Part shown: piece after piece, positions 26,567 through 50,738 of the stretch
Layout: every line of letters begins with the position of its first letter
Numbering within the stretch: position 1 is the first letter of the stretch
NCBI RefSeq assembly: GCF_003173715.1
Contig: NZ_CP029550.1
Span: 5,565,501 to 5,629,500, forward strand
From: Methylobacterium durans
Lineage (GTDB): Bacteria; Pseudomonadota; Alphaproteobacteria; Rhizobiales; Beijerinckiaceae
Length of the DNA: 64,000 nucleotides
Direction of reading: 5' to 3'
The notes under the pieces: generated by a model
Told to the model about the DNA's origin: nothing
The model's database searches: none
Seen by the model: the letters and a program-made list of their open reading frames with translations, nothing else
Translations under genes and position numbers: made by a program

Positions 26567-26602
26567 GGTGGATTCCTCCTGTCTGATGCAGATGGGGAGG
26601 AA

Positions 26603-26626: not shown

Positions 26627-26730
26627 GCACCGGCTCGATTCCCGGCTACGGCCACGCTAACCCATTCTCGTCGCGATCCCTTGCTCTACGGCTTCCGCCC
26701 GGCGCGACCGGGTCGTCTGGAGTCAAGCTC

Positions 26731-26979: not shown

Positions 26980-26994
26980 TCCCGCGGGCGGCGC

Positions 26995-27804: not shown

Positions 27805-27833
27805 GGAACCAGCAGGAGGCCAGGGAGGGCCGC

Positions 27834-28112: not shown

Positions 28113-28214
28113 GCACCGGCCCAGGCGGAAGCGGGTCTGGGTCGGCGAAAAGATGGGTTCCGCCCGGCGCCGCGCGAGCTACCATCCACTCCACAAGAAC
28201 ACGGAGTGGCAGGG

Positions 28215-28421: not shown

Positions 28422-28700
28422 ACCCGCCGGTGCGGTTCCGGACGGAGCGGGCGCCGCGATTGACCGGCCCGGCACGGGCGACGGACAACCGGCGACGCGG
28501 CATCCGCCGCACACCTCAAAGGCACCTCGGCCCGCCCGGCCCCGTCCCCTTCGGCCGCGGCGGGCCCTTTCGCCCGCGGCGGCCCCTCTCGCTCGCGGCG
28601 CATCCCGCGCGGTTCGCCGGGGGTACGGAAGGAAACCGGGGTGGGCGCGCGCCTGAACGGGCGGCGACCCTGGCTGTTCTCCTCCTCGAAGGAGAGCGCT

Positions 28701-29138
28701 ATGTCCTTGACCCGCATCGCTTTCACGGCCGCCCTGCTGGCCGCCACGGGCGCGTCGGCCCAGACCGAGGATCAGCCGCGACGCCTCGACGTTCCCTCCG
28801 GCCCCGCGACGAAGCAGCAGCCCGACCTCGACACGCTGAAGCTCGCCAGCGCCCATCGCGAGCGCGCGCAATCGGTGCAGGAGCGCACGAACGGCCTCTG
28901 GCAATCGTGGCTCGTCTCGATCTGCGAGGGCTGCGGGCCGAGCGGGCGGCCTTACCAAGACACCATCCGCAACGACATGGAGCGGAACACCCCGACCTTC
29001 ATGCAGGAGGCGGCGGCCTCCGACCGCGCCCGGATGCGGGCGAGCCGGGCCCTGCCGGCCCAGACCTTCAACCGGCGGATCTACTCGGATCTCTCGACCG
29101 AGACGGTCGCTCAGATCCGTCGCACGCCCGCGCGCTAG
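28701..29138 (+). CDS. Secreted protein, paralogue of 44593-45051
   Basis: A 145-residue protein from ATG 28701, with GGAGAG ahead. The signal peptide (MSLTRIAFTAALLAATGASA) is cleaved before Gln. The mature part has the block LKLASAHRERAQSVQERTNG, then LWQSWLVSICEGCGP with two Cys, and ends RRIYSDLSTETVAQIRR. The same blocks occur in the protein at 44593-45051, about 60% alike by eye. The CEGCG pair could form a disulfide or bind metal. No known domain. This copy is in GC-rich core-like DNA. Confidence 0.72.
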   Translation: MSLTRIAFTAALLAATGASAQTEDQPRRLDVPSGPATKQQPDLDTLKLASAHRERAQSVQERTNGLWQSWLVSICEGCGPSGRPYQDTIRNDMERNTPTFMQEAAASDRARMRASRALPAQTFNRRIYSDLSTETVAQIRRTPAR

Positions 29139-29285
29139 ACCCATCTCCTGATCCCCGGATCCGTCTCGCGCCGGACCGGGGACCGCTCCGGCGGAGGATG
29201 CGCGGGCGAGGCCGCCCGACCGCCAGGGCTGGCCCGCCTTCGCGCACCGGATCGATCCCGCCTCCGGGACGAGGAACGAGATCCG

Positions 29286-29738
29286 ATGGATGCGCTGCCG
29301 GCTTTCCTCGGCCTGTTCGCCACCTCGTTCATCGCCGGCACGTTCCTGCCGTTCCTGCCCGGATCCTCCGAGATGGCCATGGCCGGACTCCTGGCGGCTC
29401 AGGCCGGAAGCCCGGTCGCGATCGTGGCGACGGCCGTCGTCGCGAACGTGACGGGCGCGACCTTCAACTATCTCGTCGGCCGCAACGTCGCGAATCTCGG
29501 CGACCGCCGCTGGTTCCCCCTGTCGCCGGCGATCCTGGAGCGGGCCTCGTCCGGATTCGAGCGGTACGGAATCTGGGCGCTGGCCCTGTGCTGGCTCCCG
29601 ACCTTCGGGGATGCCATCACGGTCATCGCCGGTCTGCTCAAGGCCGATTTCCGCCTGTTCCTGGCCCTGGTCCTCGCCGGGAAATCGTTCGGCCACGGGG
29701 CAGTCGCCCTGGGCCTGACCTGGATCGTCGGATTCTGA
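29286..29738 (+). CDS. YqaA/DedA-like membrane protein
   Basis: A 150-residue protein with four or five membrane segments. It has FATSFIAGTFLPFLPGSSEM, the signature ATVANVTGAT-like stretch (VVANVTGATFNYLVGRNVA), FERYGIWALALCWLPTFGDA and AGLLKADFRLFLALVLAGKS. These match the SNARE-associated/DedA-like YqaA group. Family members affect membrane lipid handling and possibly undecaprenyl phosphate or polyamine transport; the role here is inferred only. Confidence 0.8.
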   Translation: MDALPAFLGLFATSFIAGTFLPFLPGSSEMAMAGLLAAQAGSPVAIVATAVVANVTGATFNYLVGRNVANLGDRRWFPLSPAILERASSGFERYGIWALALCWLPTFGDAITVIAGLLKADFRLFLALVLAGKSFGHGAVALGLTWIVGF

Positions 29739-29773
29739 TCAGCCCCCGCCGCGCGCCCCGGCAGGAATGCGCG

Positions 29774-31096
29774 TCAGCGCGGCCGCAGGGCTGCCAGCGC
29801 GGCCAGCACCTCGGTCATCCTCGGCCGCGTCCCGGCGTCCTCGGAGACGCACGCCGCCTCAAGCGCTCGCATCGCCGCCACGCCCCCGCCGTCCGGCGGG
29901 CAGCGGGCGAGGAGTTCGCCGAGGAGCAGGCCGAAGGCGCGGACCTCGACGCGCTCCAGCGCGGGCGCCACCGGGCCCTCGGGCAGCGCGGAGGCGGCGC
30001 CGAAATCGGTGAGGACCGCCTCGCCGGCAGAGCCGTCCCACAGGATGTTGTGCGCGTAGAGATCCCCGTGCAGGAGCCCGCGCCCGTGGAGATGGGCGGC
30101 GGCCCGCCCCACGGCGGTCGCGAGCGCGTGCGCGATCGAGGCATCGAGGCGCAGGTCCGGATCGTAGACATCGCGGCTGCAGCTCGCGAGGCTCGGCGGT
30201 CCGGCGAGCGGGCGCCAGCGCGCGGGCAGGAGGGGCATCAGGAGGCCCTGCGCCCCCTCGGGGTGACCGGCCAGGCGGCCGATCGCCCCTGCCAGGTTCG
30301 GGTGGGCACCCGCTGCGAGGCAGGCGGCCATCTCCCGCTCGGGCAGGCCGTCGCTCGTCATCGCGCCCTTGAACAGCTTCAGGGCGACCGGCCGCGCGGG
30401 CTCCGGGCTCCCATCCCGCAGGAGCGCGCGATGCACCCGCCCCGAGGCGCCCTCGCCGAGGATCTCGCCCGGCAGGATGTCGGTCCAGGGAACGGCCGGG
30501 GCGGCCGCCGGAGCGATCGCGGGCTCGCAGGGGTTGCCGGCCCAGGAGAGCCAGGCGAGACGCGGCAGGGCGGCGATCCAGGCGGGGAGCGCCGCGATCC
30601 CGTTGGCGGAGAGCCGCACGAGTTCCAGCCGGGCGGCCTGCGCGAGGCTGGAGGGCAGGCTCCGCAGGCGATTTCCCGCCAGCATCAGCTTCTGCAGGTG
30701 CGGGCGCGCCCCGATCGCGTCGGGCAGATCCGCGATCCGGTTGTCGGTGAGCGTCAGCCAGCGCAGGGCAGGCGGCAACGCCTCACCCGGAACCTCGCGC
30801 ATGCCGGTGCCCCGGAAGCCGATCTGGCTGAGGGCCGGACAGTCGCCGAGGACGGGCGGCAGGCGCTCGAACCGGTTGCCCGAGCAGAACAGCACCCGCA
30901 GACGGCGCAGGCGGCTCAATCCCGCTGGAAGCGCGGTGAGCGCGTTGCCGCTGAGGTCGAGAACCTCCAGCGTCTCGGCGAGGCCGAAGATCTCCGGCGG
31001 AACCTCGGTGAGGCCGCCGGTCAGGCGAAGCTCGCGCGTCCCGGAGAGATCGCCGCGGCGAAGCGCCTGGAGCGCGTGGGACGTCTTAGCCTGCAT
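29774..31096 (-). CDS. Leucine-rich-repeat protein fused to a Ser/Thr protein kinase
   Basis: A 440-residue cytoplasmic protein. About seven leucine-rich repeats occupy residues 20-190 (LEVLDLSGNALTALPAGL and similar). The kinase domain follows: Gly loop LGEGASGRV at 213-221, Lys240 in VALKLF, catalytic HGDLYAHN with Asp345 and Asn350, and Asp364 in TDFGAAS. The HRD Arg is Gly, as in some bacterial and RIO-like kinases, but all the residues needed for phosphotransfer are present. The C-lobe is short. The repeat region could bind a target protein. The layout looks eukaryotic and is scattered in bacteria. It stands alone. Confidence 0.82.
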   Translation of the reverse strand: MQAKTSHALQALRRGDLSGTRELRLTGGLTEVPPEIFGLAETLEVLDLSGNALTALPAGLSRLRRLRVLFCSGNRFERLPPVLGDCPALSQIGFRGTGMREVPGEALPPALRWLTLTDNRIADLPDAIGARPHLQKLMLAGNRLRSLPSSLAQAARLELVRLSANGIAALPAWIAALPRLAWLSWAGNPCEPAIAPAAAPAVPWTDILPGEILGEGASGRVHRALLRDGSPEPARPVALKLFKGAMTSDGLPEREMAACLAAGAHPNLAGAIGRLAGHPEGAQGLLMPLLPARWRPLAGPPSLASCSRDVYDPDLRLDASIAHALATAVGRAAAHLHGRGLLHGDLYAHNILWDGSAGEAVLTDFGAASALPEGPVAPALERVEVRAFGLLLGELLARCPPDGGGVAAMRALEAACVSEDAGTRPRMTEVLAALAALRPR

Positions 31097-38228: not shown

Positions 38229-38578
38229 CCATCTCCTTGATCCGTCGAGACGCAACGCGGCAGGCCGGCTTCGGGTCCAACGGGTGCAGGCTGTCGTTCC
38301 CCGTTCAGCGAGCACAAACAGAGAAACGCAATAATTCCCGTCTCTATTCGCACAAAATCTGCAGCTTTGCCGTATGTTGCACCTGCTGCGGAGGTCGATA
38401 CATTTTGACGCAGTCTAAAACATGTCGTTCCTGCCGATCGATATCCACACGAAAACCCAACTCTCTTCTTGCAGTGCGGTATGTAAAGCTCAGCTAATCC
38501 ATGTGGAAGCCGACGACTTGCGGAGACCTAGCCTCGCGTGAGGCTGACAGTCAGCTGTCCAGCTTAGGAGCAGCACGC
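38229..38578. other. AT-richer intergenic region upstream of the RTX gene
   Basis: These 350 bases have a clear dip in GC (about 38320-38510). No gene is supported. Such a dip suggests a strong or regulated promoter, or the edge of acquired DNA. A TTGACG at 38404 has no matching -10 at the right spacing. Confidence 0.6.
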
Positions 38579-39667
38579 ATGGCGACGATTTCTGGTACCA
38601 ACGGCCCCGACAACCTGACCGGCACGGCCGCGGACGACATCATCCTCGGTCTTCTGGGCAACGACATCATCACGGACCCGGGCGGGTTCAACCGGATCGA
38701 CGGGCAGGACGGCAACGACACGATCACGGGCGGCAACGACCTCGACTACATCGCCGGCGGCCCCGGCGACGACACGATCTTCGCCCGCGACGGGAACGAC
38801 CAGCTCATCGGCGAGGCCGGCAACGACACCATCTACGGGCAGGCGGGCGACGACTATGCCGCCGGCAATCCAGGGGACGACGTGCTCTATGGCGGCCTCG
38901 GCAACGACTTCCTCGTGGGTGAGGCCGGACGCGACCAGGTCTTCGGCGAAGACGGCAACGATTTCGTCGCCGGCGGCGACGACGACGACGTGCTGGACGG
39001 TGGTGCGGGCAACGACCTCGTCGACGGCGACCTCGGCAACGACACCCTCTTCGGCCGCGCCGGCAACGACGTCCTGTTCGGCGATGCCGGCGACGACCGG
39101 ATGACGGGCGGCCCCGGGGACGACATCCTCGACGGCGCGCTCGGGCGCGATACCGCCGTCTTCGACTTCAGCCTCGCGGGCGCCACGGTCGATGCGCGGG
39201 GCGTGCTCGCCACCGTCGGCGGGTCGAGCGGCACGGACACCGTCAAGAACGTGGAGGTGTTCGAATTCTCCGACCGTACGGTCGTTCAGGGGGACGGCAT
39301 CGTGCTCGTGGACGACCTCTACTACCTCAGCCGGAACCCGGACGTGGCCGCTTCCGGCTTCGACGCCGAGGTGCACTACGCCACCTTCGGCTGGAAGGAG
39401 GGGCGCGACCCGAACGCCTTCTTCGACACGTCGGGCTATCTCGCAGCCTACGGAGACGTGCGGGCGGCCGGCGTCAACCCGCTCGAGCATTACATCAATT
39501 TCGGCTGGAAGGAGGGTCGCGATCCGTCGGCCGACTTCGACACGCGCGGCTACCTCGCGGCAAATCCCGACGTGGCGGCCGCCGGCTTCAACCCGCTCGA
39601 GCATTACCTCGCCTTCGGGGCCGTCGAGGGCCGCGCCGTGGTCAGCGACGGCGTCTTCTTCACCTGA
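38579..39667 (+). CDS. RTX (hemolysin-type Ca2+-binding) protein
   Basis: A 362-residue protein with AGGAG eight bases before ATG 38579. Residues 1-205 are RTX nonapeptides of the GGxGxDxhx type (GGAGNDLVDGDLGNDTLFG), forming a Ca2+-bound beta-roll. The last 130 residues are three copies of a 35-residue unit of the form YLAANPDVAAAGFNPLEHY followed by FGWKEGRDP. No cleavable signal is present, as usual for type I secretion through TolC. No enzyme domain is visible, so it may be a surface layer or adhesion protein. The same repeat unit occurs in the convergent gene. Confidence 0.88.
   Translation: MATISGTNGPDNLTGTAADDIILGLLGNDIITDPGGFNRIDGQDGNDTITGGNDLDYIAGGPGDDTIFARDGNDQLIGEAGNDTIYGQAGDDYAAGNPGDDVLYGGLGNDFLVGEAGRDQVFGEDGNDFVAGGDDDDVLDGGAGNDLVDGDLGNDTLFGRAGNDVLFGDAGDDRMTGGPGDDILDGALGRDTAVFDFSLAGATVDARGVLATVGGSSGTDTVKNVEVFEFSDRTVVQGDGIVLVDDLYYLSRNPDVAASGFDAEVHYATFGWKEGRDPNAFFDTSGYLAAYGDVRAAGVNPLEHYINFGWKEGRDPSADFDTRGYLAANPDVAAAGFNPLEHYLAFGAVEGRAVVSDGVFFT
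39310..39655. repeat. Inverted duplication, left arm (shared RTX C-terminal module)
   Basis: This arm codes the three units with FGWKEGRDP in the plus-strand RTX gene. It matches 39845-40200 in reverse orientation; at 39386-39432 the match to 40076-40117 is nearly exact. The arms are about 190 bases apart, so the DNA could form a large cruciform or recombine by inversion. Confidence 0.75.
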
Positions 39668-39682
39668 TCGCGTCGACAAAAA

Positions 39683-39709
39683 GCCCCGCGGCCGTCGAGG
39701 CCGCGGGGC
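39683..39709 (-). terminator. Terminator between the two RTX genes
   Basis: GCCCCGCGGCC and GGCCGCGGGGC pair across a five-base loop. A five-A run (39678-39682) gives a U-run for minus-strand transcripts; it also follows the plus-strand RTX gene by 16 bases and may stop both. Confidence 0.75.
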
Positions 39710-39837
39710 GAAGTGGTCGGAACGAGACGCAGGGACCTGCTCTCGCCCGGGGATGATGCGCGCCGGCCCGGACCCGGCCAAGGGGCTCCACCCCGCCCAA
39801 AGGGGGCCCCGAGAAGGCGCAGAAGGATTAGTGCCCC

Positions 39838-40733
39838 TCAGCCGAAGACGCCGTCGTCGACCACGGCGCGGCCCTCGGCGGCCCCGTAGGCGAGGTAGTG
39901 CTCCAGCGGGTTCATGCCGGCGGCCGCCACGTCGGGGTTCGCCGCCAGATACGACTTCGTGTCGAAATCGTCCGACGGGTCGCGTCCCTCCTTCCAGCCG
40001 AAGGTGCGGTAATGCTCGAGCGGGTTGACGCCGGCCGCCCGCACGTCGCCGTAGGCGTTCAGATACCCTTCCGTGTCGAAGAAGGCGTTCGGGTCGCGCC
40101 CCTCCTTCCAGCCGAAGATGGCGTAGTGCTCCTCCGCATCGAAGCCGGAAGCGGCCACGTCCAGGTTCCGGCTGAGGTAATGCAGATCGTCGACGAGCGC
40201 GTTGCCGTCGTTCTGGCGCACGATCAGCCCGCCGAAGACGAAGGTCTCGACGGAGGTCGTCTGGACGGACACGTCGCCGATCCCCCCGCCCTCGTCGTCA
40301 TCATCGTCGTCATCGTCGCCGCCGGGGCCGCAGCCTGAACCGGAGCGGCATCGTCATCGTCGTCGTCATCATCGTCGTCATCGTCGCGCGATGAGATCGT
40401 GGCGACCACGCCCCGAGAGTCGATCCTGAGATCGCCGATCGAGGCTCCGAGATTGAGGATGTCGACGCCCGTGCCGCCGTCGAACACGAAGCGGCCGTTG
40501 ACCACGTCGAGCGTGTCGTTGCCGGCGCCGCCGAAGAAGGTCCCGTTCGTGAAGGTCGCGTTCAGGGCCTCGTTGCCGTTGCCGCCGAACACGGTGACCT
40601 GATTGAAGCTGTCGTCGTCGCCGGTGACGTTGAACAGATCGTCTCCGCCGTTGGGATAGATCTCAATCGGATCGTCGTCCTCGCCGATCGTGAAGATTTC
40701 GGTCGCGCTCGTGCCTTGCACCACCCTTGCCAC
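39838..40733 (-). pseudogene. Second RTX-related gene, frameshifted in the Asp-rich linker
   Basis: It begins at GTG 40733 after GGGAGGAA (ARVVQGTSATEIFTIGEDDD). Residues 1-105 hold RTX-like units (FGGNGNEAL, FGGAGNDTLDVV). Then comes a run of Asp (GAC/GAT) codons. After it the frame changes near 40335: one more G in GCGGCCCC would restore AAGPGG and a second Asp run. The remainder (SVQTTSVETFVFGGLIVRQN) ends in the same three 35-residue units as the RTX gene at 38579. The GC-rich break could be real decay or an assembly error. Confidence 0.78.
39845..40200. repeat. Inverted duplication, right arm (shared RTX C-terminal module)
   Basis: This is the reverse-oriented partner of 39310-39655, in the frameshifted minus-strand gene. 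The protein-level match is about 85% by eye, so the copying is fairly recent or the sequence is under gene conversion. Confidence 0.75.
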
Positions 40734-40956
40734 GTATTCCTCCCATCGTCCGGCCAGAAGGCCGCCATCCTGCCGAGAGTAGGCGGGCAAGCACTCTCTG
40801 TTAAGCGCCTAATAAACCCGGACGCGATTGCCTATTTGTCCTGATTATTGTGCCGAAAGGACCCGCCTTCCGGCGGGGAGGCACCGCAACCATTCCGTGG
40901 TGGCGCGCAAGCCCGTTCAACGGCGGAGCGGACGGCTCTCCGGTCGGTCGACAAGG

Positions 40957-41310
40957 GGATGCACACGCACAATGCGTCGGAATATCCGTCGATCCAAGCC
41001 GCCATAGATGCCGCCGAGGGAAACTCAAATGGAGGGGCGGTCTATATTCCGGCCGGCGTCTACCACCTCGAAAACACATTGAGAATTTCAAATTCGGGCC
41101 TGAGCATCTTCGGAGACGGGCCAGACTCCACTATCCACGCGAATGCCAAGCTCACGGCATCAGGGTCGAAAGCGGATCGATGGACCGCTACCGCATCACG
41201 GGCAACGACTTGTCCCGCAACCTGACGAGCGGCCTGTTCGACGAGGGCACGGGTCGCAAGATCGTGCGCGACAACATCGATTGGAGCGACCAAGCGACGT
41301 GGGTTGAATC
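40957..41310 (+). pseudogene. Remnant of a pectate-lyase-superfamily beta-helix gene
   Basis: The first part (EYPSIQAAIDAAEGNSNGGA, VYIPAGVYHLENTLRI, SIFGDGPDSTIHA) is the N-terminal start of a Pectate_lyase_3-type beta-helix. At about 41155 the reading jumps frame and continues with MDRYRITGNDLSRNLTSGLF and IVRDNIDW, which normally ends such proteins. The central helix, some 200-300 residues, is missing. It is a deletion plus frameshift and is no longer functional. Such proteins act on polysaccharides or as phage tail spikes. Confidence 0.7.
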
Positions 41311-41654
41311 GCCGCCCCCGACCGTCAATCCGAGGCCAGAGAGAAGCCGGTTCGGCTGGCCCAGGCGCTGAGACACCGCACGCGCCCGCGGCCGAAGACC
41401 GGAACGCCTGAGGCTCCGTGGCCGGGTATGGAGTGGCTGTGGATCAGCGCCACGCCACGATCCGCATCGAACACGACTTCGCGCACGTCGGGGGAGCTCG
41501 CTTGCGAACGCGAAGAGGGGCGCCGGGTCGGCTCGACCCGCTTCGGAATGGCCGGAACCCGGGCGAACGAAACGCTGCTGTCCAACCCCGGCAAGGACCG
41601 TGTCGAACCGGTCCGAGCAGGATCAGAGAAACGAAGCGAGTTCAGAAGGATAGC
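41311..41654. other. Gap between the lyase remnant and the tRNA-Asn fragment, no gene seen
   Basis: No frame on either strand has a good start and protein-like composition. The region is GC-rich and probably decayed sequence. Confidence 0.55.
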
Positions 41655-41702
41655 TGGCTGCCCGAGTGGAACTCGAACTTACGATGACGCGGTTCACAGT
41701 CG
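41655..41702 (-). other. Decayed copy of the 3' half of tRNA-Asn (possible att site)
   Basis: These 48 bases align without gaps to 50663-50710, the part of the intact tRNA-Asn from the anticodon loop to the CCA end, with 39 of 48 bases identical. The orientation is the same. The 3' half of a tRNA is the standard crossover site left when an element integrates by tyrosine recombinase, so this may be the far end of an integrated island reaching to 50710. Confidence 0.6.
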
Positions 41703-41769
41703 GGGCGATGCGGTTCAGGTCAGGGCGTGCCAATCCAAGGAGAGGCATGACTGCTGCTGACAATGAAAA

Positions 41770-41791
41770 GGCGGGACCCGAAGGCCCCGCC
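41770..41791 (-). terminator. Rho-independent terminator of the gene at 41818-42405
   Basis: GGCGGGACC and GGCCCCGCC pair (one G-U) over a CGAA loop. AAAA precedes on the plus strand, giving UUUU for minus transcripts, 27 bases after the stop at 41818. Confidence 0.7.
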
Positions 41792-41817
41792 TCTTCCCGT
41801 GCCGATCGGAGATCTGA

Positions 41818-42405
41818 TCAGGCCGCGAGCAGGCCGTGCTGCAAGGCAGAGACGATCGGATCGACGACGTCGATCTGGATATGCTGCGATGCGTAGACAG
41901 CCGTGTGATCGGTGTTCGTCTCGGGCAGGGTGATGTCGATCGTCCCTCCCTTGTTGTCGGCGTGGCCATCCAGGCTGCCGTAGCCGAAGTTGAGCGAATT
42001 CTGGGAGAGGTGCGGGTTCGACCCGTCTTCGTCGCCGAGGACGGGGGCTTGCGTATTCCGGTTCACCGAGATGTCGGTGCCGCTGCTGAGGTGCTTCAGG
42101 TCGAAGACGAAGTGCTCGCCGTACCGGTTATTCACTTCGAGCGTGAAGCCCTTGCCGCCATCGGTGACCGTGTTCACGCCGGTGTTGATCGAGAAGTCGA
42201 ACGATATCCCGGAACGATTGGCGTTCGAGCCCTGCTCGCTGTTCAGGCCGTTTTGGATGCCCGAGTCTGCCGTGAAGTGGACGGAGCCATCGTCCTGCAG
42301 CGTACCGACAATTGTGTCGCCGGTCCAATAGCGGACACGCAGGCCGAGCTCGGCTCCCGACGTGGCATCCTTGGTGATCGCCCAGTCGGCCAGACCGCTC
42401 CTCAA
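41818..42405 (-). CDS. Hypothetical extracellular-type protein, perhaps N-terminally truncated
   Basis: From TTG 42405 the protein has 195 residues, rich in Asn, Gly, Thr and Asp (ELGLRVRYWTGDTIVGTLQD, ISFDFSINTGVNTVTDGG, TDISVNRNTQAPVLGDEDGS). This composition is that of secreted beta-rich proteins with no Cys. It begins abruptly (RSGLADWAITKDATSG) without a signal peptide, so either the start was lost or it is exported by type I secretion. GAGG lies seven bases before the TTG. No domain is recognised. A terminator follows at 41770. Confidence 0.6.
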   Translation of the reverse strand: MRSGLADWAITKDATSGAELGLRVRYWTGDTIVGTLQDDGSVHFTADSGIQNGLNSEQGSNANRSGISFDFSINTGVNTVTDGGKGFTLEVNNRYGEHFVFDLKHLSSGTDISVNRNTQAPVLGDEDGSNPHLSQNSLNFGYGSLDGHADNKGGTIDITLPETNTDHTAVYASQHIQIDVVDPIVSALQHGLLAA

Positions 42406-42825
42406 GCATACGCCTCATCCCGCGCCATCGCCGGTGAAGAGGACGCCGGTCCTTTCCTGTTCAGAGCCCCAAGGGCCGATGGCGCCCACCTCACGTTGAC
42501 CGCAGCGTCATCCTTGCAAGTGCTGCTGCAGTCGGGTCGATGGCGGGATTAATACCAAAAAGTCGATTTGCAGCGGATTACATTAGAATTACCTTCAAGG
42601 TGTGGAAACTCAGCTTAAATTCCGGATGCGCGACATCGCACGATCAGATTTGCAAGGTCGATGGCTACTCATTCAGAATGGGCTCTTGGCTGACAAAATT
42701 CTGATGAAAAATATTCGCCACCTGAAATCCAAGCAAGGCAGAAATTTCAGGAGGCGTCATCATCCAGCATAGTTCGTCGATGATCACAACTCTATAATCG
42801 CCAATCTAAAGATGGGGCATGATTC
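42406..42825. other. AT-rich intergenic region ahead of the methyltransferase
   Basis: These 420 bases are strikingly AT-rich from 42540 onwards compared with the window. No gene is supported. A hairpin lies at 42721-42751. The composition continues into the methyltransferase gene and supports foreign origin. Confidence 0.65.
42721..42751. promoter_or_regulatory. Stem-loop CCTGAAAT...ATTTCAGG
   Basis: Eight-base perfect arms around a 15-base loop, 75 bases before the methyltransferase start. It could be an operator or a leader hairpin. There is no T-run next to it. Confidence 0.35.
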
Positions 42826-43887
42826 ATGTACTTGAATAGCGCCTTCTCAAATCAGCGACAAACGCTGCTCCGCTTGAGACGTCAGATTCGACGCTCTGCG
42901 CAGAGATATATTGGGCGATATCCCAATGCTATGGTCGTTACGCTCCTACTGTATAATCTTTGGTGGAAATTACGACACATAGCAGGCCGATCCACGACAG
43001 AAGTCAACGCGCTTGTCAGCGAGTTCGATACGAATGAGGCCTGCGACTACATCGAGGGGAATTTCGCAGGCTACGAACTCGCGGCCGGAACGACGCAGTT
43101 TTCGGGCCGCATGCTGGAGATTGGACCGGGCGGCTCAGCCGGAGGTGCATTGTTAGCGCGGGAAGCAGGCTGTGAAGCCGTCGATTTGGTCGACCGGTTT
43201 GTTGTCGTGGCGGACGAACGCCGAATGTCGGCTGTCTATCAGGAGCTCGCACGCCGCCACAATGTGGAGCAATTTCGGGTCGGACCAAGCTGGAGTAAAT
43301 TCAATCTTTCCGAAATAAGCTGGTTCGAAGGACACTCGGCCGAAAGTTTTCTGTCGCGCTGCGCACGCGAGTCCGCGAATTATTATTCATGGATCGTATC
43401 GACGGCGGTCGTACAAGATCTATACAATCCCTTGTCCGCCCTGCGTGACATGGTCACGTGTTTGAAGCCTGGCGGAAAAATGGTTCATTATATCGATACT
43501 CGAGATCAAGGCTTCTTCTCACAATACAACCATGAGCTGACTTGGTTGACGATTCCGTCTTTTCTTTGGCCCGCCCTGACGCGAGCGTCAGGGGCTCCGA
43601 ATCGGGTGCTTCTCCACCGCTACGAGGCGGTTCTTGCTGAATTGGAACGAAAGGGCCTCATCACGTATAAAATTTTCATAACTGGCCTTTTAGGCAATAC
43701 GTCTCTCGACAAGCGACAAACGCTGGACGACATAAGTGAACATTTATGGGCGCCCCCTTTGGCGGAAGTGGAAGCGAAGAAGGCAGGTTTTGCCAAAGAA
43801 TTTCGACAGGTTCCCTCGAAATACCTGGCGGTGACCTCGTTCGTACTTGTAGTGGAAAAGACGTCTTCAAGTACCAGCTCGAATTAA
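42826..43887 (+). CDS. Class I SAM-dependent methyltransferase, atypical AT-rich gene
   Basis: A 353-residue protein. A basic, hydrophobic N-terminus (VVTLLLYNLWWKLRHIAG) may touch the membrane. The SAM-binding motif I is MLEIGPGGSAGGALLA, followed by AVDLVDRF with the acidic residue of motif II, and DMVTCLKPGGKMVHYIDTRD as motif IV/post-IV. No substrate-specific motif is recognised. Codon and base use are clearly AT-richer than in the neighbours, indicating acquisition from outside. It stands alone between noncoding stretches, like an orphan left from a glycan or lipid cluster. Confidence 0.75.
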   Translation: MYLNSAFSNQRQTLLRLRRQIRRSAQRYIGRYPNAMVVTLLLYNLWWKLRHIAGRSTTEVNALVSEFDTNEACDYIEGNFAGYELAAGTTQFSGRMLEIGPGGSAGGALLAREAGCEAVDLVDRFVVVADERRMSAVYQELARRHNVEQFRVGPSWSKFNLSEISWFEGHSAESFLSRCARESANYYSWIVSTAVVQDLYNPLSALRDMVTCLKPGGKMVHYIDTRDQGFFSQYNHELTWLTIPSFLWPALTRASGAPNRVLLHRYEAVLAELERKGLITYKIFITGLLGNTSLDKRQTLDDISEHLWAPPLAEVEAKKAGFAKEFRQVPSKYLAVTSFVLVVEKTSSSTSSN

Positions 43888-44592
43888 GAAACCCACGCCG
43901 CGGCGATTCCCTCGTCGGGGGTGTGCGTCGCCGCCAGGTTCGACATGCGGTGGCGCATCCTCCGGCGGTGCAACGCCGAACGATGGTGCATGCGGCGGTG
44001 AGACATGCCAGGCGGGCTCGAAAGGAGGTCGTCGGGCTGTCGTCCTCGCGGCTTCATTGCCCCGCCTGACCGGGGAGCGAGCATGAAAAGCCCCGCGAGC
44101 CGTGAGGCTGCGGGGCGAGTGCCGGTCTTGAGCAAGAAGCCGTTCCACCTGCGAACCGAGGGAGGTTCCATGCTGGCGGAACCGCGCCGGGAGGAGCCCT
44201 CCCAGCCCGGCCATCCTGCCATCACACGCCGGCTCGCGAACTCACGCAGGTGAAGCGCGGCGCGAAAAAGTCCCCGTCAGCGATCAGGCGCAGGGCTGGG
44301 TCGGGTGCATCGGGTTCGCGCGCGGCCCGCCGCCAGCTGAGGGGCAGGGGCTCCGGCAGCGCGGCCGCGCCGGACGGGTCGTGGGAGGATCCCGCTCCAG
44401 CCGCCGTGCGGCGTGTGCATGAGAAAGCCCACCGCGGCAGGCGATCCGCCGGGTGGGCCGAGCTGGGTCTCTCGCGCCAGTGAGCTGCCCTCCGAAGACC
44501 GCCGCAGGACGTTGGGCGATCCAATGGCAGCGGTCGGATCGGTCTCGGATCGCACGCATCCACAGTGGCCGAGAGCGACCCGCCGGCCGCCG
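43888..44592. other. 705-base region without a supported gene
   Basis: A hairpin similar to a minus-strand terminator lies at 44090-44116. A 27-codon ORF (44170-44253) has GGGAGG five bases ahead of its ATG (MLAEPRREEPSQPGHP) but is otherwise unsupported. On the minus strand frames around 44222-44560 show fragments such as VGFLMHTPHGGW and LIADGDFFAPRF that suggest a decayed gene broken by frameshifts. Confidence 0.5.
44090..44116 (-). terminator. Hairpin with A-run, candidate minus-strand terminator
   Basis: GCCCCGC, a bulge, GCC and its complement form a GC stem around GTGA. AAAA at 44086-44089 would be UUUU on minus transcripts. It is close in sequence to the terminator at 39683-39709, so the unit may be a repeated element of this genome. 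Confidence 0.5.
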
Positions 44593-45051
44593 TCAACGGC
44601 TCGGAGAGCGCCGGATCTGGTCGATGTTCTCCGTCGTCAGATCGGTGTAGATGCGCCGGCTGTACTCGGACGACGGAAGGCTCCTGTAGGATGCGAGGCG
44701 CGCCGCATCGAAGCTCGTCTCCCCGACGGTGAAGGTCGGGACGTTTCGCTCCTGATCATTCCTGATCGTTTCGCTGTAAGGCTTCATCTTCGGGCCGCAT
44801 CCTTCGCAGACCGAGACCAGCCAGGACTGCCAGAGGCCGTTCGTCCGCTCTTGAACCGTCTCGGATCGCTCGCGATGTGCGGAGGCGAGCTGCATCGTAT
44901 CCAGATCGGTCTGTTGTTTCGTGGGTTGGCCAGATGGGACGCTGCGCTGCAAGTCTTCCCTATTCGGCGATGGATTGGTCAGCGCCGATTGCGCTCCAGC
45001 AGAAGACTGAACACAGAGCAGCGCCAAGCTTGCGATAGCTAGCACACGCAT
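44593..45051 (-). CDS. Secreted protein, paralogue of 28701-29138
   Basis: A 152-residue protein from ATG 45051 with AGGAGATAACC ahead. The signal peptide (MRVLAIASLALLCVQSSAGA) is cleaved before Gln. MQLASAHRERSETVQERTNG, LWQSWLVSVCEGCGPKMKPY and RRIYTDLTTENIDQIRR align with the protein at 28701. The two Cys of CEGCG are kept. This copy is less GC-rich than its relative and lies inside the putative island, so it may have arrived separately. No domain is known. Confidence 0.72.
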   Translation of the reverse strand: MRVLAIASLALLCVQSSAGAQSALTNPSPNREDLQRSVPSGQPTKQQTDLDTMQLASAHRERSETVQERTNGLWQSWLVSVCEGCGPKMKPYSETIRNDQERNVPTFTVGETSFDAARLASYRSLPSSEYSRRIYTDLTTENIDQIRRSPSR

Positions 45052-46267
45052 GGTTATCTCCTAATGAGGGGACAACAGCGCGACCGGGCTGAGGTTCTTG
45101 TGCCTAACCGTACTGCAATTTTCTAATATCAATTGTCATACACAAAGCTCGGTCGACTGACGATGCGGGCTGCGCCTGCCTCCGAGCGCCTTTGCGATGC
45201 CGGTCCGCGCTGCTCCCCAAGCCGCGATCCCTCGCATCGCACGATTCGACATAGCCGACGCGAACCGGCGCGAGCGCTGCATCAACGCAAGAGGGCAGGG
45301 GTGCTGCGACCAGCACCGTCGCCGCCGGCCGCGAGCGCGGAAGCTCCGTCGCCCCCGGCCCGCCCGACCTCGCGCGCCTTGAGCGCGAAGGCGGCCGAGG
45401 CTCATCGGCAGCGATGGGCGAGGAGCAGACGGTGTTTTGCATCCGCCATGGTCTCGCCCTGGCGTGAGGGCACCTCCACCGGAGCGGACGGCTCCTGGCG
45501 CGGGTGGGTGGCTGGAATACGCGGCGACAAGGCCGAGGGCGGCGCCCCTATCAGGCGGCCGTCGTCGACAGTTCAGGCGAAGACAGGGCGAACATCGCAA
45601 GGGCGTAACCTGCCCAGCCCACCGCTTTCGTTGATGTCAGGCCAATGAAGGAACCGGAAATGTACGTAGAGCCGGGCGCAGCCCTCGCTGCGGCCGCCGA
45701 AGCTCTAGGATCAGCGGTACGATGCCCGTAAGCAGATTGCAGCAGAAACACTTCCTTACACAGGTAGGAGCGTTTGCTGACTATCGGCCAGGGGAGTCTT
45801 GACTTGCTGCTACGGTAGGTAGTTGATCTGCGCGACGGGCAGGAGGTGAACTTTTCAAATCTCGCCATGACGCAGGCAGAGGACGCCGAACGATCGATTG
45901 CTGGCGTGTGCTGTCGTGCGCGTGGAGTGGGGCCAAGCTCGAGGCTCAGCGGCCGAGGGGCTGTGCTGACATCCATCATCCGACAGGCGTCGCGAAGATG
46001 AGAGGTCGCTCGAGCGTTTTCGGCGATGTCCTCTGCCGATGAGTCAAGGCCCGCAGGCACGGCCTTGTCCTTCGAGACGATTGTCGCCCCGCGCGCCACT
46101 GCCGAGAACTGCGCGGCGCGTCACGCCTGCAAAGCAAGCCGACGGTCTTCCTGCATGCGGAAGGAATCCGCGTCGGCCGTCGCGCGTTCGCGTGCTGCCG
46201 TGATCGAGACGTGAGCGAAGCCGGTGGGCGGCTGGTGACAGGCGGCAGACATCACGCGGCCCTCCGA
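45052..46267. other. 1.2-kb region without a supported gene
   Basis: Long open frames on both strands have shadow-like composition (Arg/Ser/Ala-rich). Only the far-right end shows some protein-like sequence. A TTGACT at 45799 followed by the small dyad CTACGGTAG recalls a MerR-type promoter, but no -10 or gene follows. The DNA is probably decayed island sequence. Confidence 0.5.
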
Positions 46268-46495
46268 ATGTCGGAGTTCACTGGAATGCAGGACGAGATC
46301 GAGCGGCTGAACGGCGAGATCGCGGGGCTTTGCGAGCACGAACCCGATCGCCGCGTGGCGTTGCACAATCGGCTCTGGCTGCGCATCAACGACGCCGACC
46401 GAGCCATAGCCGAGCTTGGGTTTTGGCTCGCGATCGTGACGGTCCTCTGCCTCGTCGAGGCAGTCGCGATCGGGCTGCTCTGTTGCTTCCGTTGA
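46268..46495 (+). CDS. Small coiled-coil membrane protein (75 aa)
   Basis: ATG 46268 (GTG 46211 upstream is open). It has a charged helix (SEFTGMQDEIERLNGEIAGL), a middle part (RRVALHNRLWLRINDADRAI) and a C-terminal membrane segment (FWLAIVTVLCLVEAVAIGLL). It would be tail-anchored. The function is unknown; small proteins of this shape occur in phage and plasmid regions. Confidence 0.5.
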   Translation: MSEFTGMQDEIERLNGEIAGLCEHEPDRRVALHNRLWLRINDADRAIAELGFWLAIVTVLCLVEAVAIGLLCCFR

Positions 46496-46520
46496 TCTGC
46501 CATCACGCGACGAACCGCCA

Positions 46521-46802
46521 TCACGCGGCCCTCGGCTCGGGTGGCGCGTCACCGTTGGCGGCGGTCGTTCCGAAGATCTCCGGGCAGAGCAGGCGCCCGC
46601 CGATGCCGCGCGCGCCCTCCGTCTTGATCGCGAGACGCGGGGAGACCCGGCAGCCCTTCCTGGCCTCCCGGATCGCGGCCTGAGACGCGCCGCACGCTGC
46701 GGCGCGCTTGGCCCCGGACCCGCGATCCTTGATCGCGGCCTCGACGAGGACGGCCGCCGCATGATTGCATGCCCTCCACGACGCCGCTCTCAGCGCAAGC
46801 AC
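46521..46802 (-). CDS. YdaS/Cro-like helix-turn-helix protein
   Basis: GTG 46802 starts 93 residues, with GAGGGG ahead and the stop of the upstream small gene just before it. AAIKDRGSGAKRAAACGASQ followed by AAIREARKGCRVSPRLAIKT, ending LLCPEIFG, follows the YdaS/Cro pattern: first helix, turn (CGASQAAI), recognition helix, then the SPxLAIxxE...LxPEIFG ending. It would be a small DNA-binding repressor, as in lambdoid cryptic prophages. It supports a phage-like origin of this stretch. Confidence 0.6.
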   Translation of the reverse strand: MLALRAASWRACNHAAAVLVEAAIKDRGSGAKRAAACGASQAAIREARKGCRVSPRLAIKTEGARGIGGRLLCPEIFGTTAANGDAPPEPRAA

Positions 46803-46803
46803 C

Positions 46804-46980
46804 TCACCCCTCAGCCTTGTCGGGCTGCCCCGTCCTGGCGCCCCCGTTCGGATCGGTCGAATCCTCGCCGGCCTCGTCCGGGTCGGTGCGCCCCTGAGGG
46901 GTCAGACGCGGCGCCGCGATGTCGGATTCGTCGGCCTGAGAACGGGGTTGCCGGGGCTTCTTCTCGTCGTCAGCCGTCAT
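46804..46980 (-). CDS. Small acidic protein (58 aa) coupled to the YdaS-like gene
   Basis: ATG 46980 has GGAGAG six bases ahead. The product is acidic, Gly/Pro/Asp-rich and likely disordered (TADDEKKPRQPRSQADESDI, RTDPDEAGEDSTDPNGGA). Its TGA stop at 46804-46806 lies one base from the GTG of the YdaS-like gene, so the pair is translationally coupled. No family is recognised. Confidence 0.55.
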   Translation of the reverse strand: MTADDEKKPRQPRSQADESDIAAPRLTPQGRTDPDEAGEDSTDPNGGARTGQPDKAEG

Positions 46981-47054
46981 GCGCGCTCTCCGATGTCTCT
47001 GTCCAAGCCCAACGCCCCGCCGAAACGACAGTTCGCCGAACGTGGAGCCGCCCC

Positions 47055-47642
47055 ATGAAGCCGAGCACCCTCACCGACACAATCCAGCGGGCCGCGTCGC
47101 TCTCGCGCTGCGGCACCTACCGCTTCACGCTGACCCGCAGGTGGGGCGAGGGCGGTCGCGTCTGCTTCATCGGGCTCAACCCGTCCACGGCAGACCACCG
47201 CATCGACGATCCGACCGTGCGCCGCTGGATCCACTTCGCCCGGGCCTGGGGCTACGGCGGGTTCACGGCGGTGAACCTCTATCCCTACCGGTCCTCCTGC
47301 CCGGACGCGTGCCGCGCGTGGTCGCGATGGGAGGACGACGGCCCGAACCGGCACGTCCGCGACGCCATCCGGGAGAATTGCGGGATCGTGGCGCGCGAGG
47401 CCAGAACCGCCGCGCTCGTGGTGCCCTGCTGGGGCGCCGGCACCTGGGATCCGCACGGGATCGAGCACGTCCTCGAGGAGATCCGGACCGGCGAGGCACC
47501 CTGGCCGGATCTCCACTGCTTCGCGCGCTCGAAGGACGGCTCGCCGGCCCACCCGATGGCCCGCGGCCGCAACCGCATCCTCGACCATGCCCAGCCGGTG
47601 CTCTGGCGCGCCGGATCGCCGAGCGACGGAGCGGCCGCATGA
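47055..47642 (+). CDS. DUF1643 domain protein
   Basis: A 195-residue protein from ATG 47055. CGTYRFTLTRRWGEGGRVCF, IGLNPSTADHRIDDPTVRRW, YGGFTAVNLYPYRSSCPDAC and VVPCWGAG are the DUF1643 blocks. The family is common in phages and mobile regions; its role is unknown, possibly nucleotide- or DNA-related. It is divergent from the acidic/YdaS pair with 74 bases between, an arrangement like a phage control region. Confidence 0.82.
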   Translation: MKPSTLTDTIQRAASLSRCGTYRFTLTRRWGEGGRVCFIGLNPSTADHRIDDPTVRRWIHFARAWGYGGFTAVNLYPYRSSCPDACRAWSRWEDDGPNRHVRDAIRENCGIVAREARTAALVVPCWGAGTWDPHGIEHVLEEIRTGEAPWPDLHCFARSKDGSPAHPMARGRNRILDHAQPVLWRAGSPSDGAAA

Positions 47643-47723
47643 TTCCCGCTCAGCGCAGCACCAGGGGCAAGGGTGAGAGCTGCGGGTCCGTCTCGCCGAT
47701 GCTTGCTCAGTGGGATTGCCGCC

Positions 47724-48017
47724 TCAGTGGGCGTGCGGCGAGGGAAGATCCTCATCGGCCAACGCCGTCTCCACGACGAAGCGCAGATAATCGTCGAGCG
47801 TGCTCAGACTTTGCGTTGGCACTTGCGAAATCGGATATGCGTCCCGGATCAGTTGCAGATCGCGTCTGATGCCCGCCAGCAAAGCGGGCCGGAGATGCGT
47901 GCTGACGTTCGGATTCAGTTGCTCGCAAGCAACAATCAGCGATCCGAGCGCTTTGGACAGAACAACCACGCCGATTTCATTCGCAACCTCAGCGTCTTTT
48001 GCGTCGCAGCGAACCAT
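47724..48017 (-). CDS. Hypothetical protein (97 aa)
   Basis: ATG 48017 (MVRCDAKDAEVANEIGVVVL), with the open frame reaching 48092. It is all-helical (LSKALGSLIVACEQLNPNVS, RRDLQLIRDAYPIS, STLDDYLRFVVETALADE), soluble and acidic. The DNA is AT-richer than the core. No family is recognised. A small helical regulator or phage protein is possible. Confidence 0.5.
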   Translation of the reverse strand: MVRCDAKDAEVANEIGVVVLSKALGSLIVACEQLNPNVSTHLRPALLAGIRRDLQLIRDAYPISQVPTQSLSTLDDYLRFVVETALADEDLPSPHAH

Positions 48018-48207
48018 GACGCCGACTCCAAGTGTGCAAAGCTGTATAATTTTCTTAGGCAACCCCCATATTTCTGTCGAGCACGTAAACATGCTTCGTC
48101 CAATAACGCACGCAATTCACTCATACTTTGTGATTACAGGACACGCGCGCACGCTCAATACTCCACCGCCACCTGCCTGGGAGAGACGGGGCCTTGCGTG
48201 CGGATCG

Positions 48208-48627
48208 TCAGTGTCTGGAACACTCACGTGCTGAGGTGAGCACCTCTTCGCCGGCGGTCTCCCGCGCGATCTGCACCTCGTCGAGCAACCACTGCTCGAC
48301 ATGGGCCGCGTGCGCGGCATCCTCAAGGTTCAGGAGTTCGCAAAACAAATCGTACTTGCCCGCCGGATCCTCGGGCGGCAGTTCCTCTAAAATCGTCAGC
48401 AACTGCCTTGCAATTGAGCGTGATCGCGCCTTGCGACAAGCCAAGGATTGTGAATTTGCCAAAGTACGCACTCCACAAATCTTTGGCACCAGCTGGCGCA
48501 AACCTCCGCGTTTCTTCGATGGCCGCACAATAAAGCCGATTAACTTCCGGCCCTTCGTACCTTTTCGTGCGCTGACCGCGCGCAGGACCGCATGATGCGC
48601 GCACAAGCCCTTCCGTGTCCCGGACAC
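48208..48627 (-). CDS. Possible hypothetical protein, start uncertain
   Basis: The C-terminal 80 residues look protein-like (RSIARQLLTILEELPPEDPA, LFCELLNLEDAAHAAHVEQW). The N-terminal half is basic and Ser/Gly-rich and may not be translated; TTG 48462 or 48444 are later starts without a good ribosome site. No function is suggested. Confidence 0.35.
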   Translation of the reverse strand: MSGTRKGLCAHHAVLRAVSARKGTKGRKLIGFIVRPSKKRGGLRQLVPKICGVRTLANSQSLACRKARSRSIARQLLTILEELPPEDPAGKYDLFCELLNLEDAAHAAHVEQWLLDEVQIARETAGEEVLTSARECSRH

Positions 48628-48666
48628 GCCATCGAAGGCGAAGACGCGCCCGATCGCCGTTCAGGA

Positions 48667-48885
48667 TCACCGTCCCACGGCAATGCCGAGAATGGCGGCC
48701 TCATAATGCGGGAGATCGTCCGCGATCCGGACCATGGCCTGATGATACAGCACGGTGCCAACGACCATGGCGAGGAACAAGGCGGCGCCCACCAGGAATG
48801 GCGTCAAGGCCGCCGCATGACGATCCGCGGTCTGTATGAGGATGCTGCCGATCGCGAATGCAATGAGCCACGTCAGATCGAACAT
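48667..48885 (-). CDS. Small two-segment membrane protein (72 aa)
   Basis: ATG 48885 with GGAG nine bases ahead. Two membrane helices (FDLTWLIAFAIGSILIQTAD and LTPFLVGAALFLAMVVGTVL) join by a short polar turn, with a tail of HQAMVRIADDLPHYEAAILG. The function is unknown. Confidence 0.55.
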   Translation of the reverse strand: MFDLTWLIAFAIGSILIQTADRHAAALTPFLVGAALFLAMVVGTVLYHQAMVRIADDLPHYEAAILGIAVGR

Positions 48886-49043
48886 ATCCGATCTCCGTCA
48901 CTTCAGAGCCTATCCGCTTCTGGGGAAGCGCTACTTGTAGAGACGAGAAGGCGAGGAGGTGTCATCCCTGGGCTGCATGACATGCGTGCGTCCGCGCACG
49001 TGATTGCGAGGGCCGCCCGATGCGCTTGGCGCCCCTCCGGCCC

Positions 49044-49340
49044 TCACCGGTCGCCGCGCTCGCCCCGCAGCTCGGCCCGCACCCGCAGCGCAACGGCGCG
49101 GATCACGTCGCGACCGGTACGGAGCGTCAGCGAGATGTCGCACATCAGGTAGAGCCGCTCCGCGATGACACACTCGATATTCCCGAGCATCAGCCTCGCG
49201 GCGGTCGCGCCCTCGGTCCGATACGTGCGCGCGAGCTCGGAGAGCATCTGCTGCAGAAGGAGCATCGCAAGGCGATCGACGATCGTGTCGGTCGTCGGGT
49301 CGATGGGCCGTCCGCTCTGTTCTGGCAACGCCTGGGCCAT
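49044..49340 (-). CDS. Hypothetical helical protein (98 aa)
   Basis: ATG 49340 (MAQALPEQSGRPIDP) or GTG 49355. The helices TIVDRLAMLLLQQMLSELAR, ATAARLMLGNIECVIAERLY and RDVIRAVALRVRAELRG are amphipathic. It is soluble with two Cys. No family is recognised. Confidence 0.5.
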   Translation of the reverse strand: MAQALPEQSGRPIDPTTDTIVDRLAMLLLQQMLSELARTYRTEGATAARLMLGNIECVIAERLYLMCDISLTLRTGRDVIRAVALRVRAELRGERGDR

Positions 49341-49568
49341 GACCAATGCGATCACAGAAGATGGGAGCCAAAAACAATCTACGTTACGGAGCGGGGACTT
49401 CTCGACCGGCGAACAGGACTACCTCGTTCGGTCTACTCGCCTGATGCCTCCGCCCCATCCCGACGCCGCCCGGGCCGGCGCGCCGGCAAGGGGGGCCGCG
49501 ATGGCGCCCCACCCGGTCATCGTCAGCAATGCGATGCTGCCCACGGCCCTTGGCGGGCAGCGCTCGCG

Positions 49569-49811
49569 TCACATCGCAGGTCCATCCTCCAGCAACCGCC
49601 GCGCAGCCACGACCGCACGGATTGTTTGCGGGCTGAGGCCGCCGGCACGAGCGTGCCCCTCGATCTCGCGCAGACGTTCGAGAAGGACAGGCACAGGTTC
49701 GCTCGCGCCTTCGAGAGCAGCCTGGGCCAGCTTCATGATGAGGCGGCAGAAGGCTTCCTCTTCGAATTCTTCGACGAGCATCGTCATTGAGCTTGCATCA
49801 AGTCTCCGCAT
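49569..49811 (-). CDS. Hypothetical helical protein (80 aa)
   Basis: ATG 49811 starts MRRLDASSMTMLVEEFEEEA, followed by FCRLIMKLAQAALEGASEPV and LLERLREIEGHARAGGLSPQ. The frame is open to 50027 but the upstream part lies in AT-rich promoter-like DNA. It is acidic and helical, with no known domain. Confidence 0.5.
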   Translation of the reverse strand: MRRLDASSMTMLVEEFEEEAFCRLIMKLAQAALEGASEPVPVLLERLREIEGHARAGGLSPQTIRAVVAARRLLEDGPAM

Positions 49812-49998
49812 GGACGGATTTTTATGGCACAATCTGACGATTGCAATCGTACTAAATAACCACCGTAAAATATTATTTTGCTTCGTCTCATCGCCGAGGA
49901 AATCTTGGCCCGCCGACGCCCTCGACATCGGAGCCACAGCGTGAGCATGACCTTCAGCACCGCCGACACGCTCCGCTGCGCCGAACGCGCGGTGCGCC

Positions 49999-50304
49999 AT
50001 GGCTGAGCGGCACGAGCCTGGCCGCACGGCCTACGAGGCGCGCTTCGCCGGCTTTCCGCTGGGCCAGCGCGGCATCGCGCCGGCCTGGGCGGATCTCGGG
50101 CCGGAGGCGCGGGCGATCTGGGCGCGGGTCGAGGGCGCCGTGCTCAGGGATTTCCGGCAGGCCGCCGCGATGCTGATCGATGCCCGCATGGCCGAGACGA
50201 GGGCCCGGTCCGCCGAGGCCGTGAATGAGGCCCTGGAGGCCGAGCGGCGGGCGGACGCGGCGATCAACCGCCTGGAGGCTCTCGCGAAGGGGGAGGACGC
50301 CTGA
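49999..50304 (+). CDS. Hypothetical helical protein (101 aa), phage-like
   Basis: ATG 49999 overlaps the stop of a 19-codon frame beginning at ATG 49948 (MTFSTADTLRCAERAVRHG), giving ATGGCTGA, a coupling style common in phage operons. The product has HEPGRTAYEARFAGFPLGQR and a long helix (VLRDFRQAAAMLIDARMAET, EALEAERRADAAINRLEALA). No family is recognised. Confidence 0.55.
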   Translation: MAERHEPGRTAYEARFAGFPLGQRGIAPAWADLGPEARAIWARVEGAVLRDFRQAAAMLIDARMAETRARSAEAVNEALEAERRADAAINRLEALAKGEDA

Positions 50305-50662
50305 GGCAAGCCCTGGAAGCGGTCGCACGTCTCGCCCTCGTTACAGACGGTCGCCCGCGCGGCCGGAAGGCCGGACGAGGCCTGGAACATGGACAGCCGG
50401 GCAGGGGCGGCGTCGGAAGCCTGCGAGGCGGGCGCCGAGCCGGCCGACGCGATGCGCAGAGCGACGCACGCGCAGATGGCGACGGCGATGATCGACACGT
50501 GCGGAGGAATGGTGCGGTCGAGCCGCGTGGCCGAATTGCGGGCGGCGCGCCGGACGGGTCGCGGGGAGGGCAGAGAGCGCCTCCGGACCATGCGCGGCAA
50601 CAAGCACAGTCACGCGCCTCGACCGTTGGTCGAAGACGTCACGCCAAGTGCCTGAAAAGATT
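50305..50662. other. Gap before tRNA-Asn, no gene supported
   Basis: A minus-strand frame here contains a plausible basic-plus-membrane stretch (PHVSIIAVAICACVALRIAS) starting near 50590, but it continues far into the antisense of the gene at 49999, so it is not called. The tRNA 3' flank lies at the right edge. Confidence 0.45.
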
Positions 50663-50738
50663 TGGCTCCCCGAGTAGGACTCGAACCTACGACAAAGCGA
50701 TTAACAGTCGCTTGCTCTACCAACTGAGCTATCGGGGA
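50663..50738 (-). tRNA. tRNA-Asn (anticodon GTT)
   Basis: Seventy-six bases with encoded CCA. The acceptor stem TCCCCGA pairs with TCGGGGA, the D arm contains AGCTCAGTTGGTAGAGC, the anticodon loop is CTGTTAA, and the T arm is GTAGGTTCGAGTCCTAC. Its 3' half is repeated in decayed form at 41655-41702. Confidence 0.96.

Follow-up and report, generated by a model that had tools for sequence, protein, structure and literature searches.

A probable decayed prophage-type island at a recurrent tRNA-Asn integration site in Methylobacterium durans

The stretch of DNA analysed in this study, a 64-kb window of Methylobacterium durans (all coordinates without a locus name refer to this window; the host genome is a single 6.79-Mb contig), contains an island at positions 41655-50738, both attachment (att) sites included, which was delimited by the match between these sites, by the edges of similar islands in congeners and by guanine-plus-cytosine (GC) content. 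This island is very probably a decayed element of the temperate-phage type that integrated site-specifically into the 3' part of a tRNA-Asn gene and has since shrunk. That the island is a dead remnant of the prophage type, reduced in size and lying at a tRNA-Asn site used repeatedly, is well supported.

The right end of the island is an intact tRNA-Asn(GTT) gene (50663-50738, minus strand; ARAGORN, and Rfam RF00005 at 71.2 bits), which forms the island-proximal attachment site and whose 3' 48 nt (50663-50710, minus strand) are the att core. The left end (41655-41702, minus strand) is a decayed distal attachment site, a copy of tRNA-Asn positions 29-76. As the first-pass annotation had proposed, the two segments are identical at 39 of 48 positions, ungapped and in the same orientation, which is far above chance. 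In a scan of the 76-nt tRNA over both strands of the window, the site scored 25.5, compared with 11.5 for the next-best place and at most 16 for 200 letter-shuffled tRNAs, and it was the only displaced tRNA-Asn fragment visible. The match starts at the encoded CCA end and stops abruptly after base 48; because only 5 of the 28 positions of the tRNA 5' part match beyond it, 41655-41702 is a true part copy. Unrelated tRNAs did not reach this level: among 10 other isoacceptors, which were read by ARAGORN from the window and eight loci of the same genome and are a subset of its tRNAs, the best was Arg with 30/48, followed by Phe (29) and Lys (26), and these are best-match rather than 3'-anchored values, the ARAGORN-read tRNAs holding a few extra letters. 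The sole full-length 100% match of tRNA-Asn in the 6.79-Mb genome was 50663-50738; other tRNA-like matches covered part of the query at no more than 84% identity and, where ARAGORN read them, were other tRNAs.

The same displaced segment was seen in congeners (G-numbers denote comparison genomes, and L- and C-numbers loci or contigs in them), which bears out the claim that the matched part is the tRNA-Asn 3' half duplicated as an attachment site. When 61 genomes were searched with the tRNA plus its right flank, isolated 48-nt matches to query bases 1-48 were listed for G005, G006, G009 and G025. In eight of 14 genomes followed up, a fragment of tRNA-Asn 29-76 lies on the contig of the intact tRNA, on its 3' side and in like orientation, at distances of 63 kb (G005), 57 kb (G087), 56.5 kb (G125), 35 kb (G025), 23.4 kb (G009), 11.3 kb (G088), 6.5 kb (G073) and 3.0 kb (G083); the spacing in the window is 9.0 kb. 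G087 has two displaced fragments, the second on another contig, and one of its fragments covers positions 28-76 instead of 29-76. The fragments of G006, G070 and G128 lie on a different contig from the tRNA. Among the matches listed, fragment and own tRNA were identical at 48/48 positions in four of four pairs.

Congener comparison also revealed the element-side octamer GGGCGATG beside the att core (41703-41710, plus strand), the remaining conserved arm being lost. The octamer GGGYGATG is exact in four of nine relatives compared and has one mismatch in the other five, a recurrence that further supports att duplication. With att core and arm taken together, the window site ranks first (40.2 vs 36.5). 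A 22-base pattern over the core edge and the element side, allowing at most two mismatches, was found in 11 of the 111 genus genomes, one of them the window's own, and the reversed pattern used as a control in 0 of 111.

One island, that of G009, has empty sites in two genomes. The 9.7 kb outside its fragment matches the tRNA-adjacent DNA of G018 and G026 in collinear blocks, which stop short of the tRNA by about 200 and 280 bp and of the G009 fragment by ~236 bp; the remaining bases between the blocks and the fragment or tRNA gave no clear alignment. G018 and G026 are empty sites for this island at the level of gene order, and the G009 DNA between fragment and tRNA is an insertion because the outside blocks adjoin the tRNA in both. 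In G005, the DNA flanking the tRNA in G026 was found about 9.9 kb outside the fragment, an arrangement consistent with a tandem array. On the other side of the tRNA, tRNA-Asn/tRNA-Cys and a gene which we take, from its position and sequence, to be pcm are adjacent in the window and lie about 18-61 kb apart in G003, G004, G008 and G033, a spacing that marks a second insertion or rearrangement point.

The first-pass annotation stated that no integrase is left inside the island. This has to be rejected, because a conserved 1.5-kb tRNA-proximal block in relatives is an integrase gene, and its decayed 3' remnant of 89 codons lies at 50305-50571 (plus strand; tblastn, alignment A1 and DNA identity to G021). 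Conservation extends over the inner 1.5 kb beside the tRNA in G021, G006, G025, G009 and G005; the conserved piece is shorter in G073 and the window, and about 150 bp of it are left in G029. In G021, the block is a 415-aa open reading frame (ORF), P0001, which heads toward the tRNA 3' end as the window remnant does. P0001 matched the phrog_1 integrase (E 3.7e-16) and PF00589 (E 7.9e-5; 22.9 bits, under the family cut-off of 27.1), with no NCBIfam match. It is predicted to be a tyrosine recombinase from its R...R-H...Y catalytic domain, in which R358 and H381 are invariant and R240 and Y390 nearly invariant in alignment A1; the catalytic roles of these four residues are presumed. The window remnant is an open stretch equivalent to residues 327-415 of this divergent 415-aa recombinase and lacks the N-terminal ~326 residues. 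It has 76% protein identity to P0001 over its length, and the DNA is 84% identical over 362 bp up to the tRNA. Tyr390 of P0001, the putative catalytic residue, aligns to Asp in the remnant, and there is no stop codon at the conserved protein end, where the frame runs on. P0001 differs in being full-length with Tyr390 and in having adjoining DNA unlike the window interior.

Intact members of this integrase family were seen directly at tRNA-Asn. Relatives of at least 66% identity occur at 15 loci besides the window in 110 genomes (13 fetched loci and partial ones in G103 and G073). Thirteen of these are 77-135 bp from an intact tRNA-Asn (11 directly, that of G103 via the probable contig L140 and that of G073 in two pieces), and the remaining two lie beside a tRNA-Asn fragment (G087) and beside tRNA-Phe (G086). 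P0001 is identical to a protein of Methylobacterium oxalidis NBRC 107715 (NZ_BJZU01000063.1), the genome to which G021 corresponds. At 17 more distant loci with flanks (L114-L130), the downstream tRNA was tRNA-Gly in nine and tRNA-Lys in one, and seven had none. The family had not come to light when six genomes were searched for PF00589 at E 1e-5.

The G086 member (G086:C1:5287114-5306762) lies at tRNA-Phe, with a distal site about 19.6 kb away that is 48/48 identical to its own tRNA-Phe and is followed by GGGTGATGTCATTGATTT; G086 is among the 11 genomes with the edge pattern. It represents a target change inside the integrase family. A second type of tyrosine-recombinase C-terminus abuts the same att core at L086 9583-10641, L083 about 9360-10032 and L040 16113-16595. 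This type matched PF00589 in G005 and is DNA-similar in G125, G087 and G016, the ORF in G016 giving no Pfam match; the G005 ORF reads through the att core, and its 5' part overlaps, by eye, a transposase-like frame.

The composition and content of the island are foreign and patchy, respectively. The GC content of 41655-50662 is 0.635, compared with 0.695 in the left 9 kb and 0.719 in the right 9 kb; 11 of 220 overlapping nine-kb segments are lower, and the lowest begins at 40001 and overlaps the island itself. Pieces of the interior were matched in 46 of 110 genomes (own included; at most two candidate places were scored per genome), and none listed was longer than 0.8 kb except in the host genome itself.

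The connection to phages is provided by G125 and G021. In the G125 island at tRNA-Asn (C1:2799949-2856619), 10 ORFs compared with PHROGs included tape measure, endolysin, terminase, portal, head protease, major head, DnaB-like helicase and integrase, in addition to one of unknown function and one without a hit. A DUF1643 gene, recognised by sequence match, lies within 0.3 kb of the integrase inside this island. The G125 prophage thus has the tRNA, the 48-nt core, the homologous integrase and the neighbouring DUF1643 in common with the window, but it is 56.5 kb long and carries head, tail, lysis and replication genes, whereas the window island is 9 kb with none recognised. The DUF1643 gene of the window (47055-47642, plus strand; PF07799, E 1.4e-27; phrog_3230) is phage-associated cargo, and its presence confirms the earlier call. 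A YdaS/Cro-like repressor had also been named; the small ORF at 46521-46802 (minus strand) did match a transcriptional repressor, phrog_35, although weakly (E 1.4e-5). Next to the integrase remnant, a 101-aa ORF (49999-50301, plus strand; no PHROG match) is 67% identical over 94 residues to G021 L142 10227-10508, which lies directly before the integrase of a G021 phage-like segment.

In a tblastx comparison with a 45-bit limit, for which the reversed control gave 0 blocks in five of five loci, the interior had five collinear blocks with G021 C126 (45366-45485; 46515-46748, in the repressor-like region, at 79%; 47016-47648; 49008-49355; 50002-50283) and three with G021 C104. The stretch 48664-49355 is common to C104 and partly to C126, both phage-like segments, and no intact gene was assigned to it. 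Besides DUF1643, C126 bears genes for a repressor, an Erf-like protein and a RecE-like exonuclease, and its integrase is a different one; with these shared blocks and early-region genes, the island resembles, in its right part, a phage early region that has been shortened. Its left part (41703-45200) may be later cargo. This part contains the S-adenosylmethionine methyltransferase-like gene noted in the first pass (42826-43887, plus strand; PF13489, E 6.9e-7; relative in G029 C17), which has an unusual composition (third-codon-position GC 0.57), a 152-aa ORF of no family (44593-45051, minus strand; 68% identity over 168 residues in G090, and a relative in G021 L065), and a 195-aa ORF from the ORF list (41818-42405, minus strand), which had no matches in Pfam, PHROGs and NCBIfam scans. 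No relaxase or type IV secretion family was found among 10 window ORFs scanned with Pfam. Overall, the earlier description of an old phage-like or integrative element largely holds once the integrase is added. The island is the remnant of a tRNA island rather than a complete one, because its end marks are present and an intact integrase is not. Nor is it a complete temperate prophage, as the ORFs scanned included no recognisable structural genes and neither integrase nor att sites are intact.

Considering all the above results, we propose a history of the island that is very probable. A temperate-phage-type element would have entered the 3' part of the tRNA-Asn gene by site-specific recombination, with its tyrosine recombinase crossing over in the anticodon stem-loop region, a position that we infer because the shared block ends there. 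The element's copy of bases 29-76 would have restored the tRNA at one end, leaving a displaced 48-nt fragment at the other. Later deletion and decay probably removed about 326 integrase codons and also the phage structural genes, to the extent that these were tested for. Further decay would have converted the putative catalytic Tyr to Asp and left the distal site with 39 of its 48 core bases and little of the recombinase arm, so the element should no longer move by itself. The series from the G125 prophage through the short islands of G088, G073 and G083 to the scars of the window and G029 looks like a record of this erosion.

Several observations weigh against this history. At 41703, the 44-base arm scored -0.83 and ranked 59 of 127914 positions, and only its first eight bases match; an element-side arm past the octamer, with no convincing match over 44 bases, was rejected as a feature. 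The edge pattern misses the fragments of G083 and G070, and a copy in L139, probably a G083 contig, is followed by GGGCTGAG instead of the octamer. At E 1e-6, no tRNA-Asn fragment was found in G084, G106 or G086, although G084 and G106 do carry the integrase at tRNA-Asn. For the left flank of the window's own island, an empty site was not found. In the closest relative, G021, this flank (to window 40867) is close to the end of one contig and the tRNA close to that of another; the contig with the flank stops 214 bp past the base matching window 40867, this 214-bp stretch is unaligned, and the 3.3 kb assembled at the G021 site is unlike the window interior beyond the integrase end. With regard to phage descent, no structural gene (terminase, portal, capsid or tail) was recognised among the window ORFs scanned, structural genes were examined in the G125 island alone among the relatives, and a complete tailed phage would seemingly not fit into the islands of 3.0, 6.5 and 11.3 kb.

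Other histories must also be weighed. The distal site and the integrase remnant might derive from successive tandem or nested elements with a patchwork between them, a composite that agrees in outline with a single decayed prophage and differs in history. Tandem cases do occur at the tRNA: the 3' end of a second tyrosine recombinase (PF00589) abuts the outer side of the distal att site in G005, similar outer-side DNA is found in G125 and G087, and G087 has two displaced fragments. The interior falls into two parts by GC content (0.592 for 41703-45200, 0.659 for 45200-50300), the matches to its pieces lie at unrelated loci in G021, G029 and G090, and the most collinear phage-like segment, C126, has a different integrase. 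However, the single displaced fragment in the window and an integrase remnant placed as in a single element speak for one integration, and we regard the composite as possible but the less likely course of events.

Rather unlikely, and slightly more so than the composite, is that the element was a phage satellite, an integrative conjugative element or another genomic island using the same integrase family. The spread of islands at tRNA-Asn from 3.0 to 63 kb, with phage genes tested in one, and the failure to recognise structural genes among the window ORFs tested would suit such an element. Against it, a segment bearing repressor, Erf-like and RecE-like exonuclease genes has DUF1643 (phrog_3230) and the small ORF in the same order as the window, and integrases 32-44% identical to P0001 are present in four of 50,697 phage records. 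We infer that the window island descends from a phage and not from a satellite.

A related question concerns the age of the integrase at this site. The DNA identities of the window remnant and of pcm were, respectively, 85.8 and 88.1 with G021, 82.0 and 81.2 with G006, 69.3 and 74.9 with G009, and 66.7 and 77.1 with G088. Pairwise integrase identity roughly tracks the identity of pcm, its neighbour (45 pairs from ten rows, Spearman 0.83; the rows represent nine distinct genomes since G106 and R2-1 are one genome), with a loose fit in places such as G088-window and a p-value that ignores the non-independence of pairs. G125 was left out, pcm not being found in the fetched stretch. This trend fits long residence or narrow exchange. 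It is conceivable, though we hold it to be doubtful, that the tRNA-Asn integrase is a resident, lineage-bound module which diverged with the host chromosome while its cargo was repeatedly exchanged or deleted, leaving graded scars. This is kept as an open possibility only, because the yardstick pcm is a single gene linked to the site, the unlinked yardstick selB was found in only three of eight genomes, and close relatives have empty sites.

Finally, partial tRNA genes do occur, and nine of 48 positions differ, but an independent, decaying tRNA-Asn copy without integration, the alternative raised in the first-pass annotation, is extremely improbable and was ruled out by the match statistics and tRNA specificity, since 41655-41702 stops at the same base as the congener fragments and continues into the same octamer, the tRNA 5' part is absent (5/28), and a remnant of the integrase family resident at tRNA-Asn lies beside it.

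Some neighbouring features of the window were also observed. Just outside the distal att site, fragments at 40848-41371 resemble, by eye, a beta-helix protein of the pectate-lyase type. Two convergent genes at 38501-40790 have ends that are ~366-bp inverted copies, 87% identical and common to G021, and the first of the pair resembles a calcium-binding-repeat (RTX-like) protein by NCBIfam matches under the cut-off. A selB gene (23116-25020; TIGR00475 above cut-off) and a NuoF-like gene (16822-18834) point to a possible selenocysteine locus, but an Rfam scan of 15000-30000 at E 0.5 gave no tRNA-Sec. About 250 bp at 25411-25670 recur in congeners at several loci with 72-80% identity, among them L086 8663-8908 and 14021-14277, L085 and L088. 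The 88-nt tRNA-Glu(ctc) read by ARAGORN at 27628-27715 is probably a false call, with no Rfam tRNA match at E 0.5.

The part of the Islander paper used here describes tRNA-gene islands whose ends are marked by a regenerated tRNA and a displaced fragment and which carry a tyrosine integrase, and it records tandem arrays and an anticodon-centred attachment class (PMC4383910). On that description, the window island resembles them in its intact tRNA and displaced 3' fragment of shared orientation, and differs in that its integrase is a broken remnant and its fragment decayed; a filter that requires an integrase might for this reason miss it. A literature search, judged by titles and abstract starts, found no paper on this tRNA-Asn site. 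The island is a known kind of genomic relic, of low surprise and involving no new mechanism. For the tRNA-Asn site of Methylobacterium and its kin, the integrase family, the edges of the att core and the octamer on the element side have now been described, which makes it possible to recognise decayed islands there even where the integrase is broken.

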